This document shows, in pieces, positions 1,513-8,543 of a DNA stretch of 36,379 nucleotides (positions within the stretch are counted from its first letter, which is position 1; each line of letters starts with the position of its first letter). The DNA is from an uncultured Rhodospirillales bacterium. GTDB lineage: Bacteria > Pseudomonadota > Alphaproteobacteria > Azospirillales > Azospirillaceae. The DNA lies in the NCBI GenBank assembly GCA_903931735.1, contig CAIZDL010000039.1:1-36379 (forward strand), in the 5' to 3' direction. The position numbers were made by a program, and so were the translations under genes. A model generated the notes under the pieces. The model saw nothing but the letters and a program-made list of their open reading frames with translations. It had not been told where the DNA came from and did not search any database.

Positions 1513-2886
1513 TTACTCCTCAAATGCGGCGCTAAAATCAGCGGCTTTGGCGTCGCGGTCTCCTAATGGGGCGAGGCCAAAGCGATGCTCGATGGTCGCC
1601 AGGATTGAGGTTGTATTATAAAGGGTGTGGTCGACAAAGCCCTTGCGCGCTTTTGGCGACACGATAATCGCGGGAATTCTGGTTCCCGGTCCCCAACGGT
1701 CACCGGCCGGTGGTGCTGCATGATCCCAAAAGCCGCCATTCTCATCGTAAGTAATAATAACGGCGGTACTCGGCCACTGCGGGCTGCGCGTCAGGCGGTC
1801 GATCACGTCGCCAACATGGCGATCACCCGAGACGATTTCAGCATATCCCGAATGCTGATTGAGCGCGCCAATCGGCTTATAAAAGACCACCTTCGGCAAG
1901 GCTCCCTCATCAATCGCCCGCATCAGATCGGCGCCGTCTTTAAGGTGCTCGGCCCGCGCCGCCGTGCCCACACCAAAGTGCGCAAAATAGGCGAAGGGCT
2001 GGTGATGAAACTGAAACAGCGGGTCGGGCGTACCGGCGTTGGCGTCGTCCCAGCCGCCCGAATACCACGCCCACGAAACACCTTTTTCCGACAACCGATC
2101 ACCGATAGTGACCATGGTCTGCGGCGGTAATAACAGGGCGGGATCGGTTATCGCCGGGCTGTGAGGCGGCCCGCTCGCCTGAATCGTGTTCACGGCATAG
2201 CCATCCGGCGTGACAACCCCTTCCCTCATCACCGTGCCCCGTTGATCCATCGTGGTCAACAACGCCTCGGGCGGGTTGGGGTATTTGGGGGTACACGCGC
2301 ACACCACCCAAAAATGATTGAGGAACGAGCCGCCAAAAGCGCCCTGAAAGAAGTTATCGGCGAGGGTGAAATCTCGAGCAAGCTGCCAGATCCGGCTACC
2401 CGTTATATCCCGATACCCCAGCGCAAGCGCCTTAGCGTCGGAAAGCGCGACAAACTTGTCATTCAGACCGCCATGAATCTGCTGCTGGTTGGTATAAAAG
2501 CGGTGAACCAGATCGCTGATTTTCTGATCCGCCGGCACATAGCGGCCAATATCAAATGGCTGATTGGGCAGATCTATGGGAAAGCGGGTATCGGGCGCGG
2601 CCGTTGGCTGGCCGGTGAGCATCACAGGGGGCAACAGCGCATAGGGCTTGCCATCGGGATCGACCTGGAGCGCGGCCCTTCCCGCGTTTGCACGGCCATT
2701 GGCCCCTGGAAATGCGCCAAAAAGGGCATCAAAGCTCCAGTTTTCCAGGAAAACCACCACGATGTGGTCGATTTTCGCCAAGGGCGGCGGCGGCGATAAG
2801 GCCCCGGCCACGCTGGCATTCATCGCCAAAGCCGCCAGCATCAAGCCACCGAAAACCACGCTTCGGACCGTCGGGGTGGTGCTCAT
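1513..2886 (-). CDS. Secreted phosphoesterase, AcpA/phospholipase C family
   Basis: This 457-aa protein starts at an ATG with GGGAG about ten bases upstream. An N-terminal signal peptide (hydrophobic about residues 9-29, ending near AGALS) predicts export. The rest matches the phosphoesterase family of acid phosphatase AcpA and bacterial phospholipase C, which hydrolyse phosphomonoesters or phospholipid head groups. Visible family motifs are FLENWSFD (Glu48, Asn49), GAFGGSFLNHF with a candidate nucleophile Ser187, and ITYDENGGFWDHAAPP (Asp381, Glu382). The first motif usually reads ENRSFD; here the Arg is Trp. The length is normal for an acid-phosphatase-type member and short for hemolytic PLC, which has extra C-terminal domains. 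Acid phosphatase is therefore more likely than phospholipase C. It is divergent from the agmatine-deiminase-like gene across a 140-bp gap. A role in phosphate scavenging is inferred. Confidence 0.9.
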   Translation of the reverse strand: MSTTPTVRSVVFGGLMLAALAMNASVAGALSPPPPLAKIDHIVVVFLENWSFDALFGAFPGANGRANAGRAALQVDPDGKPYALLPPVMLTGQPTAAPDTRFPIDLPNQPFDIGRYVPADQKISDLVHRFYTNQQQIHGGLNDKFVALSDAKALALGYRDITGSRIWQLARDFTLADNFFQGAFGGSFLNHFWVVCACTPKYPNPPEALLTTMDQRGTVMREGVVTPDGYAVNTIQASGPPHSPAITDPALLLPPQTMVTIGDRLSEKGVSWAWYSGGWDDANAGTPDPLFQFHHQPFAYFAHFGVGTAARAEHLKDGADLMRAIDEGALPKVVFYKPIGALNQHSGYAEIVSGDRHVGDVIDRLTRSPQWPSTAVIITYDENGGFWDHAAPPAGDRWGPGTRIPAIIVSPKARKGFVDHTLYNTTSILATIEHRFGLAPLGDRDAKAADFSAAFEE

Positions 2887-3026: not shown

Positions 3027-4073
3027 ATGCCCATCCCCTCACTCGGGCGCTGGCACATGTCGGCGGAATGGGAACGCCACAGCCGATGCTGGGTAGGGTG
3101 GCCGAGTTGCGCTGGGGCGTGGCCGGGCGGGCTGGAAGCGGCCAAAGCGGCCCTGGCCGAGCTGGCGCAAACCATCGCCGCCTTCGAGCCGGTCACCGTG
3201 GTCTGCACCCCAGACGACGCCGTGGATGCCTCGCTCGCCTGCGGTGCCGGCATCCAGGTGCTTCCGCTGGATATCGGCCATGGCTGGCTGCGGCGGACCG
3301 GGCCATCGTTTTTAATCAACGAAACCGGGGGGATAGCCGGGGTAAGCTGGCTGGCGGGAGGCGGGGGAAATGGGGCGGAGGCTCACGACGCCGACGCCAC
3401 CATCGGCCGCCGCATCCTCGACCATTTAACGCTGCCGTGCTATAGGACCCCTCTCTTTTTAAATGGCAGTGCTCTTTCGGTCGACGGCGCGGGGGCTGTC
3501 ATGGTGACCGAGCAATGCCTGCTCAACGACCCCCGCACCGCCGGGCTGAGCCGGGCAGAAATTGAGCAGCATCTCAAATGCTGCACCGGGGCCAGCACCG
3601 TGATTTGGCTCGGCACCGGGTGCGAGTGGGCTGACAACGGCGGGTTGGTCGAAGATGTCGCGTGCTTCGCGGCGCCGGGAGTGGTGCTCGCCCTCACCAC
3701 CGACGATCCGCTCGACGAAAATTTTCCCGCCCTGCAAGACAATCTCGACCGGCTCAAAAAGGCGCGCGATGCCCACGGTCGGCCGCTGGAGGTGGTAACG
3801 GTTCACCAGCCGGCCCGGCGCCCACGCGACAATGGCAGCGGCCGGCTCTCCATGTCCTATACCAACCTTTATTTACCCAACGATGCGGTGATCCTGCCCG
3901 GGTTTGGCGACGCCGCCGACCAGGAAGCACGACGGACCCTGCGTAAGCTCTTTCCCCAGCGCGAAGTTATCCAACTCCCGGCACACGATTTCGCCGCCGC
4001 TGGCGCCGGCATTCACAGCCTGACGCTCCACCAGCCGGTCGCCTTCGCCCTGCCCTACGATCCGGTGATCTGA
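3027..4073 (+). CDS. Agmatine deiminase-fold protein without the catalytic residues (pseudoenzyme)
   Basis: The 348-aa protein aligns end to end with agmatine deiminase/peptidylarginine deiminase-type enzymes: MSAEWERHSRCWVGWP near the N-terminus, a TGPSFLIN block, VDGAGAVMVTEQCLLN, VIWLGTGCEW, ACFAAPGVV and YLPNDAVILP. The active-site motifs are altered. The usual DDxWMRDxGP reads GHGWLRRTGP (residues 84-93). LEGGSIHVDG reads LNGSALSVDG. DGHVDN reads GGLVED, so His becomes Leu207 and Asp becomes Glu209. The nucleophilic Cys in GxIHC is Ser331 (GIHSLT). The frame is intact with normal codon use. I chose the ATG at 3027 (GGAG upstream, start fits the family) over an upstream in-frame TTG at 2994. 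Hydrolysis of agmatine is therefore unlikely. A ligand-binding or regulatory role is inference. Confidence 0.88.
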   Translation: MPIPSLGRWHMSAEWERHSRCWVGWPSCAGAWPGGLEAAKAALAELAQTIAAFEPVTVVCTPDDAVDASLACGAGIQVLPLDIGHGWLRRTGPSFLINETGGIAGVSWLAGGGGNGAEAHDADATIGRRILDHLTLPCYRTPLFLNGSALSVDGAGAVMVTEQCLLNDPRTAGLSRAEIEQHLKCCTGASTVIWLGTGCEWADNGGLVEDVACFAAPGVVLALTTDDPLDENFPALQDNLDRLKKARDAHGRPLEVVTVHQPARRPRDNGSGRLSMSYTNLYLPNDAVILPGFGDAADQEARRTLRKLFPQREVIQLPAHDFAAAGAGIHSLTLHQPVAFALPYDPVI

Positions 4074-4171: not shown

Positions 4172-4489
4172 ATGAATATTGGAAATTACATCATGGCGCC
4201 TGCCGTTCGGCAAGCTGCTCCCCCGCCTCCACCCAGCCCGGGTGTGACGACGGCGGCGAATGCGGCCATCCTTGCGGCACAGAACGTCTCGGTACAAACC
4301 CGCACGCAGACGACGACGGCGTTGCAGGCGACGGGTGGGTCCGATCAAACGCGCACCGGCCTCTCGCGAAAGAATACCGGCGAGAGTGTCGACACCAGCG
4401 CCAACGCGGTTACCGCCCGCAGCAACGGTGGCGGCGGTGGCCGGAGCGGCGCGCCACATCGCGGGGGCACTCTCGATATTCGGGCCTAA
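4172..4489 (+). CDS. Small low-complexity protein (hypothetical)
   Basis: This 105-aa ORF begins with ATG and has coding-like codon use. It lies between a candidate promoter and a clear intrinsic terminator on the same strand, which supports a real monocistronic gene. Composition is unusual: a Pro-rich stretch near residues 16-23, a Thr/Ala/Gln-rich middle, a Gly run near 86-91 and a C-terminal RGGTLDIRA. No signal peptide or transmembrane helix is evident, and most of the chain is probably disordered. I vaguely recognise small alphaproteobacterial proteins ending in a similar Gly-Leu-Asp-Ile tail, but cannot name a family or function. AGGG lies just upstream of the ATG but very close to it. 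Confidence 0.6.
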   Translation: MNIGNYIMAPAVRQAAPPPPPSPGVTTAANAAILAAQNVSVQTRTQTTTALQATGGSDQTRTGLSRKNTGESVDTSANAVTARSNGGGGGRSGAPHRGGTLDIRA

Positions 4490-4532: not shown

Positions 4533-4561
4533 GGCGCTTCCCCTTGGGAGGCGCCTTTTTT
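4533..4561 (+). terminator. Intrinsic terminator of the small protein gene
   Basis: GGCGCTTCCC (4533-4542) pairs with GGGAGGCGCC (4546-4555) around a three-base loop, ten pairs including one G-T, followed directly by six T residues (4556-4561). This is the clearest Rho-independent terminator in the window. Confidence 0.9.
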
Positions 4562-7559: not shown

Positions 7560-7994
7560 CTACAATTCATACGCGGCGACAAGCAACTTATCGATAGCCT
7601 GACCATCGGTAGAGAGCGGCAACACCACCCGCTCCCACGTCTGCTTCGCACCGTTAAAGGTTGCGGTGTAGACGCGATGAAGCGGCGAACGCTGCCGGCA
7701 CACCAACTCATACTCCTGCCGCAAGATATCACGCACCGCCTCGGGCAAATCATTCAGGGTTTGGCCGAGGCGGCTCTCCCCAAAAGCGCGAGCCAGCGAG
7801 CGGCCGTAATAGGAATAAAAAAACTCGCCATCGGTGTGCAGGTGCATGATCAGCAGGTTCGGCAGCCACCGGCGCAGGTCCGCAGGCTCCATATCGGAAC
7901 CCAACGGCAAGCCGCCTTTCGGGCATTGCTTCAACCAGAATGCGCAGAGAGCCTGCACTTCGGGGTGTCTCAGTCCTGTGGGTTCATCGACCAT
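7560..7994 (-). CDS. PAS_5 (PAS-fold) domain protein
   Basis: This 144-aa protein is essentially one PAS-like domain of the PAS_5 type, common in Rhodospirillales as small single-domain proteins. Family-typical text is visible: MEPADLRRWLPNLLIMH, then HTDGEFFYSYYGRSLARAFG and a C-terminal ERVVLPLSTDG. Members are presumed ligand sensors, but their output is generally unknown; no kinase, GGDEF or DNA-binding part is attached. The start is the ATG at 7994; no strong ribosome-binding site precedes it. The upstream 159 bp contains a short direct repeat (cattggtgaag, twice, 15 bp apart) and no gene I can support. The small acidic protein follows 13 bp downstream. Confidence 0.8.
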   Translation of the reverse strand: MVDEPTGLRHPEVQALCAFWLKQCPKGGLPLGSDMEPADLRRWLPNLLIMHLHTDGEFFYSYYGRSLARAFGESRLGQTLNDLPEAVRDILRQEYELVCRQRSPLHRVYTATFNGAKQTWERVVLPLSTDGQAIDKLLVAAYEL

Positions 7995-8153
7995 GTGATC
8001 TTAGGAGAAGTCATTGGTGAAGACAGCATTGGTGAAGGCGGCGTAGGATCAGGCCCGCACCCCGGAGCGTCGCCGCCCCGAACCGCGCAAGCACACCATA
8101 ACGCCCGACCAACGGGACGCGCAATCGCTATCTCGCAACCCGATGCAGGCCAT

Positions 8154-8336
8154 TCACGCTGGCTCATCCAGTTTCTTGCCATCGAGATCGCGGCAACCGC
8201 GATCTTTGGCGGCGCGATCGGCTTGCTTTTCCGCCTTGGGCCGGCCGGTACGAGCCCGGTTAACGCCGGCTTCCTGCTCCCGCACACGTTGCTCACGCTG
8301 CTTGCGATAGCGATTGAGGTTGACGATCTCGCCCAT
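8154..8336 (-). CDS. DUF4169 family protein
   Basis: A 60-aa highly charged protein starting MGEIVNLNRYRKQREQR and continuing GVNRARTGRPKAEKQ with a final LDGKKLDEPA. This is the DUF4169 pattern: an N-terminal VNLxxxRK, a central NRxxxGRxKAEK and a C-terminal LDG. The family is widespread in Alphaproteobacteria and has no established function. I chose the inner ATG at 8336 because GGGGAGG lies six bases upstream; the open frame extends 23 codons further without support. In many relatives it sits near fumC and sspB, but neither is present here. Confidence 0.87.
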   Translation of the reverse strand: MGEIVNLNRYRKQREQRVREQEAGVNRARTGRPKAEKQADRAAKDRGCRDLDGKKLDEPA

Positions 8337-8543
8337 GCCTGCCTCCCCAACCAAAAGAAAAATCAGCCGGACCGAAAATGGGAAGCTCCCGTTGCGTCCG
8401 GTCATCCGACCTTATAGCTTAACTCAGGCGCGCCCGGGTGCAAGCCCTACCGCAACGCTCCCAATATTTTTCCCCGGAGCCGCGGACCGGCGCCCGCCTC
8501 CTTTTTGAGACGCCCATCCCCGTTTTCAAAGGAACTCCGGCCG

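Follow-up and report, generated by a model that had tools for sequence, protein, structure and literature searches.

An agmatine deiminase fold without its catalytic triad, probably kept by purifying selection for a non-catalytic role

One gene of an uncultured Rhodospirillales bacterium raises the question of whether an enzyme homologue that has exchanged its catalytic residues within an intact reading frame has acquired another role or is on its way to being lost. The gene lies in a 36,379-nucleotide stretch of DNA (contig CAIZDL010000039.1), called here the window, and the initial annotation of this stretch had proposed an agmatine deiminase (AguA) homologue turned into a pseudoenzyme with a new function. 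The genome from which the window comes (G000; 3.48 Mb, completeness given as 100%) was compared with four congeners (G001 to G004), giving a genus sample of five genomes, and with other genomes of the family.

The frame contains no internal stop and encodes 348 residues, the G002 orthologue likewise having a Met where this frame begins. The protein matches PF04371 (Pfam PAD_porph) with 284.7 bits (cut-off 25) along the full length of the profile (1–321 of 321), its residues 9–338 align with the agmatine iminohydrolase chain of the solved structure 6nib, and many scaffold residues are retained; thus, an open frame, an AguA scaffold over the whole length, and replaced catalytic motifs were all found as the initial annotation had described them (Table 1). 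Both NCBIfam agmatine deiminase models match the protein below their cut-offs; in the case of TIGR03380, the score is 244.9 bits with an equivalog cut-off of 381.8, and four canonical relatives (351.7–378.7 bits) also fall 3–30 bits under that cut-off, the G000 protein lying 107–134 bits below those four. A structure predicted from only two sequences, that of the window and that of its nearest relative from the contig search (L031, a G002 contig and the 1 relative obtained from 50 candidate stretches), reached a mean pLDDT of 34.5, too low to be of use. The window gene is the sole AguA match in the whole G000 genome, and a second canonical aguA elsewhere in it, which was searched for genome-wide and not found, was therefore rejected. 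An assembly artefact was likewise rejected, as G002, a separate genome, has its own related loss, and the ubiD of the window groups with that of G002.

Table 1. Positions of the pseudo-deiminase gene, its altered motifs and its tail in the window, and of the aguB remnant in a congener
Feature	Location	Strand	Particulars
AguA-like pseudo-deiminase	3027..4073	+	ATG start, 348 aa plus stop; open frame, PF04371 whole-model match
Residues 84-90, GHGWLRR versus canonical xDSWxRD	3276..3296	+	D85H, S86G, D90R; W87, R89 kept
Residues 110-114, AGGGG replacing canonical FNAWG loop	3354..3368	+	6nib alignment, canonical comparison
Residues 146-149, NGSA replacing EGG(S/A)	3462..3473	+	E146N, G148S
Residues 199-210, CEWADNGGLVED, around lost His and Asp	3621..3656	+	Y199C, D202A, T204N, H207L, D209E, E210D
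Residues 322-332, FAAAGAGIHSL, around lost nucleophile; canonical IVxGGGGIHCI	3990..4022	+	I322F, V323A, G325A, G327A, C331S, I332L; H330 kept (canonical comparison)
Genus-specific C-terminal tail PYDPVI	4053..4070	+	Identical in all five species, synonymous differences only
Broken aguB remnant, L061 (G001:C22)	about 7961-8395	-	In-frame stop

The residues named for catalysis or substrate binding in the MtAIH paper (PMC6447857) were mapped onto the G000 protein through the 6nib alignment and served as active-site positions. Position 203, the twelfth of those mapped, is variable in canonical relatives, and the placement of Asp218 and Asp220 of MtAIH on the G000 protein is uncertain by one or two residues. 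Glu146, which we take to be the catalytic Glu, was added to the set. The canonical relatives comprise 27 proteins, namely the 30 loci read residue by residue minus three Cys-less ones, and a further 20 AguA match rows (the best hits of 14 genomes and six second copies) lie outside this residue-level reading. In these 27 proteins, 105 positions are invariant, 11 of them in the active site and 94 elsewhere. The G000 protein is changed at 32 of the 105, including nine of the 11 active-site positions (D85H, D90R, W113G, E146N, D202A, H207L, D209E, G325A, and C331S; only W87 and G326 are still present) versus 23 of the other 94 (Fisher p = 0.00032). The positions of C331S, H207L, D209E, and E146N are each invariant in 27/27 canonical relatives, as are D85, W87, and D90, and at the sequence level the Cys-His-Asp triad is gone from the protein.

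The initial annotation had correctly read Ser331, Leu207, Glu209, Asn146, His85, and Arg90, and had missed the losses of Trp113 (in the FNAWGG loop), Asp202, and Gly325; position 113 is the counterpart of MtAIH Trp125, a residue of the substrate-channel lining (PMC6447857). Its replacements of DD by GH and of EGGS by NGSA do exist, each overstated by one residue, as the canonical residue is G, S, N, or D at position 84 and A or S at position 149. The further statement that only functional positions had been lost was too strong, given the 23 changed invariant positions outside the active site.

Selection on the gene was estimated by means of a codon maximum-likelihood program written for this analysis, with leuA and ubiD as yardsticks; the fits used 7 of 30 aguA, 7 of 9 leuA, and 6 of 12 ubiD loci, and covered the 336 of the 348 codons whose alignment columns contained no more than one gap. 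Omega (dN/dS) as estimated for the terminal aguA branches was 0.086 in G000, 0.079 in G002, and 0.112 in G004, with a background of 0.053, all of these values being rough, as the synonymous sites are almost saturated (the G000 branch carries roughly 1.4 neutral changes per site). A value of omega = 1 was rejected for G000 (p = 1.3e-13, 2dl = 54.9), G002 (p = 1.2e-6), and G004 (p = 3.3e-14), and two other taxon sets gave similar omegas, the five genus members alone rejecting omega = 1 for G002 only at p = 0.02. Compared with the background, neither G000 (p = 0.16) nor G002 (p = 0.23) differed, and G004 reached about twice the background value (p = 0.012). Thus, aguA of G000 is under purifying selection as an average over its branch, and its very recent state is beyond the resolution of the method, since a late loss of the Cys would place part of the constraint in the time when the enzyme still worked. 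A dN/dS near 1, which the initial annotation had named as evidence that would make this a decaying gene, was not observed, and neither were the other marks of a pseudogene, as the frame is open and aguA of G000 and G002 align without any indel across 348 codons at 73% nucleotide identity.

The constraint is unevenly distributed along the protein. When active-site segments and the remaining codons were fitted as separate partitions (branch lengths fixed from the main fit, and the ancestor branch of 0.121 from the omega = 1 fit), omega in G000 was 0.229 (0.142–0.356) in the 53 codons close to active-site residues versus a background of 0.028, and 0.064 (0.046–0.087) in the remaining 283 codons versus a background of 0.059. 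The corresponding values were 0.125 (0.036–0.256) and 0.074 (0.047–0.108) in G002, and 0.138 (0.082–0.219) and 0.107 (0.084–0.135, background 0.059) in G004. Relaxation in G000 is confined to the active-site segments, the scaffold being constrained like that of working enzymes, and the scaffold of G004 is somewhat relaxed too. In addition, among invariant positions at which G002 is canonical, G000 is changed at 10 of the 18 that lie close to the active site and at 5 of the remaining 63 (p = 4e-5), a clustering not expected from uniform decay. In simulations with point changes only and no indels, a wholly neutral G000 branch acquired 6–9 stops on average, with a probability of remaining free of stops of at most 0.003; shorter neutral periods left this probability at 0.06–0.12 (0.15 changes per site) and 0.03–0.08 (0.2), and for periods of at most 0.15 none of the four simulated settings brought it down to 0.05, with which a short and recent release from constraint in G000 may be compatible. 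On the branch leading to the ancestor of G000 and G002, omega was near or above 1 in aguA, and no conclusion is drawn from this value because it was also raised in leuA (0.60) and ubiD (0.18), perhaps because the base composition shifted or the population passed through a bottleneck in this line.

The congeners display several states of the same protein. G001 and G003 keep the full active site, and such orthologues in close relatives, which the initial annotation had likewise regarded as a sign of decay, do not by themselves make aguA of G000 a decaying gene. The G002 protein, 72% identical to that of G000, has lost W113, G325, G326, and the Cys (now Asp), and that of G004 lacks D90, W113, and the Cys (Arg in its place), both keeping the His, Asp, and Glu, so that the loss of the whole triad is peculiar to G000 among the five genomes. 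Nine identical changes at invariant positions, such as S86G, Y199C, G325A, and I332L, are common to G000 and G002. When only the exact active-site positions are counted, changes show no significant enrichment in G002 (4/11 versus 20/94, p = 0.22) or G004 (3/11 versus 15/94, p = 0.28), and in windows of three residues around these positions the enrichment of changes gave p = 0.00035 in G002 and p = 0.059 in G004. The initial annotation had suggested a search for orthologues with the same substitutions: the loss of the Cys recurs in G002 and G004, and the full set of substitutions in no orthologue. In the family, an AguA match is present in 81 of 82 genomes and the GIHCIT motif in 78 of 82, in all 78 inside an AguA match (two tables compared by eye). 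Those without the motif are G000, G002, G004, and G094, the last of which has no AguA match at all, and outside the genus the Cys motif is kept in 76/76 AguA-bearing genomes. One genome of the family, G011, carries four extra PAD_porph matches (contigs C374 and C14), three of them on one contig together with a second aguB over the cut-off.

As for the number of losses, G000 and G002 are grouped in both the aguA and the leuA trees with a support of 100, and G004 is grouped with the canonical G001 and G003 (support of 88 in aguA and 99 in leuA); in the ubiD tree, from which G003 was left out as a fragment, G004 pairs with G001 (99). Because G004 groups with species that keep the Cys, the most economical reading of the trees is that the genus lost this residue on at least two occasions, once in the line of G000 and G002 (possibly twice, considering Ser versus Asp) and once more in G004. 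The ancestor of G000 and G002 would already have been Cys-less, a reconstruction, given that their residues differ, and a misplacement of G004 could reduce the number of losses to one.

The partner gene of the agmatine route, aguB, follows a parallel pattern. With model TIGR03381 (cut-off 410.25 bits), AguB passed the cut-off in G003 and, of 17 other genomes of the family that were tested, in 16; the best scores of G000, G002, and G004 stayed below it at 76.6, 91.3, and 88 bits, respectively; thus, the three genus genomes with a Cys-less AguA are the same three that lack aguB over the cut-off. An intact aguB lies directly upstream of queA in G003, and G001 retains, upstream of queA-tgt, a broken copy that consists of a remnant of the first half, most of the second half being missing, which suggests that the loss of the partner can precede that of the Cys. 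No aguB match better than E = 0.5 was found within 1.5 kb of queA in G000 or G002, and the stretch of G004 ends about 190 bases upstream of queA. Regarding neighbouring steps, SpeA was over its cut-off in none of 22 genomes, agmatinase was over its cut-off in four of ten (G002, G010, G011, and G014), and G000 gave no agmatinase match. G000 also contains a group-III decarboxylase (L102), separate from the true LysA (L103) and under every cut-off, whose identity as an ornithine decarboxylase is only suspected.

All five AguA proteins of the genus end in PYDPVI, and 25/25 outgroup proteins end before such a tail. The encoded motif occurs once in each of the five genus genomes and in neither of two outgroup genomes, and five of its six codons differ between G004 and G000, all of them silently. 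Such a pattern points to selection acting on the peptide whether AguA is dead or live and, if so, the role of the tail would be older than the loss of catalysis.

Taken together, aguA of G000 is best explained as a catalytically dead agmatine deiminase fold that is kept by purifying selection for a putative non-catalytic role, a reading to which a probability of about 0.6 can be assigned. A second role would have been gained in the ancestor of the genus, before or while the AguA–AguB route of agmatine was dismantled, and could plausibly involve a protein–protein contact through the scaffold and the conserved tail. After the loss of aguB, selection would have been lifted from the active site only, with the scaffold being kept; moreover, the pocket need not be in use any more in the Cys-less proteins, since the three of them show three different pockets. 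A wider scenario can be proposed tentatively, and with rather more doubt, in which a bacterial genus would have converted its only agmatine deiminase into a protein with a structural or binding function, with a tail-dependent role in the ancestor and catalysis shed independently in two lineages in step with the loss of aguB, so that G003, G001, and then G002, G004, and G000 would represent the before, during, and after of the process. Of the roles advanced in the initial annotation, a pseudoenzyme with a new function agrees with the constraint, with a dN/dS far below 1, and with the relaxation limited to active-site segments, and a partner deiminase or a shared new reaction does not: assembly with a real deiminase of the AguA family finds no support, as the G000 genome has no other AguA match, and a different reaction, as a shared one, is disfavoured by the differing pocket residues of the three Cys-less orthologues.

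Among the alternatives, the gene could be in decay, aguA having become dispensable when the agmatine route was lost with aguB, and the intact frame reflecting the short time since its full release. This would fit the failing aguB (without a match over the cut-off in the three Cys-less genomes and broken in a fourth, G001), the doubled dN/dS of G004, which includes the rest of the protein, the stop-free frames in more than 5% of simulations for neutral periods up to 0.15 changes per site, and the fact that plain loss does happen, as G094, the one further genome of the family that lacks the Cys motif, has no aguA. Nevertheless, omega = 1 was rejected on the three Cys-less terminal branches (for G002 only at p = 0.02 with the genus members alone), the constraint on the G000 scaffold matches that on working enzymes, its private changes at invariant positions cluster at the active site in a way not expected from uniform decay, and the PYDPVI tail is intact in 5/5 species, so decay seems unlikely.

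The two remaining alternatives retain a use for the pocket. It might have been rebuilt (H85, R90, N146, S148, E209, and S331) for another substrate or reaction that does without the Cys-His-Asp triad, and with several acidic residues now neutral or basic and W87, R89, G326, and H330 kept, the pocket of G000 could suit an anion; however, G002 and G004 lack these residues, no set of new residues is common to the Cys-less proteins, and a new site should be conserved between G000 and G002, yet the active site is the most relaxed part of the G000 protein, which makes such chemistry improbable. A ligand sensor, whose pocket would still bind agmatine or another polyamine without turnover and signal through a partner, would account for the substrate-channel Trp87 kept in all three Cys-less proteins and for Asp85, Asp90, Glu146, His207, and Asp209 kept in G002. 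It is the least probable of these explanations, as residues binding the guanidine group and the terminal amine have been substituted in G000 (D85H, D90R, D202A, and H207L), the channel Trp113 is lost in all three, and agmatine is no obvious signal in G000, in which agmatinase gave no match and neither AguB nor SpeA passed its cut-off.

The preferred reading of a retained, inactive fold has precedents of a similar kind. The G000 protein is an enzyme homologue without catalytic residues and, in this sense, a pseudoenzyme; it resembles AguA (TIGR03380, PF04371; MtAIH 6nib, Arabidopsis 1vkp/3h7c) in its homology over the whole length and differs from it in lacking the triad and most substrate-binding residues, in lacking aguB over the cut-off, and in its extra C-terminal tail. 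DDAH presumably belongs to the same superfamily as AguA and PAD_porph proteins. In a bacterial DDAH, the replacement of Cys by Ser abolishes turnover (cited in PMC10256801), and the DDAH2 of animals, as described there, shares with the G000 protein a replaced nucleophilic Cys and a five-module barrel and does not hydrolyse ADMA, so the kind is already known; however, DDAH2 is a paralogue beside an active DDAH1 (PMC10256801), whereas the sole copy found in G000 is dead. A bacterial pseudoenzyme of a hydrolase family acting on guanidine-type substrates, MetCb of metformin hydrolase, is kept as a binding partner (PMC11271267); unlike the G000 protein, it belongs to the ureohydrolase (arginase) family and not to the penteins, and it pairs with an active homologue, MetCa, a pairing that is unavailable within the AguA family in G000 because there is no second AguA match. 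No report of an AguA pseudoenzyme was found in a literature search, which misses most subscription journals.

Pseudoenzymes have often been described as extra copies beside an active paralogue. Here, the sole AguA copy is dead, and five species of one genus display canonical, partner-less, and dead states side by side, which makes the order of partner loss, release of the active site, and retention of the scaffold directly testable. Moreover, annotation at the family level would suggest an agmatine deiminase even where a genome no longer has the pathway.

As for the surroundings of the gene, among the 27 genes of the window only aguA and generic thioredoxin, kinase, and chemoreceptor matches were found in the stretches of the four congeners. 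A leuA-like frame elsewhere in G000 (L063, G000:C272:10128-11861) contains a TAA in frame (codon 492 of 578), which is either a real truncation or an assembly error, and this frame is open in the four congeners. An acid phosphatase of Burkholderia type (TIGR03397, 493 bits) is encoded divergently from the pseudo-deiminase gene at 1513-2886(-) of the window. Downstream of the latter gene, an Ala/Gly/Thr-rich ORF of 105 aa occupies 4172-4489(+); beyond it, at 4533-4555, lies a 10-pair stem with a T run that resembles a terminator.
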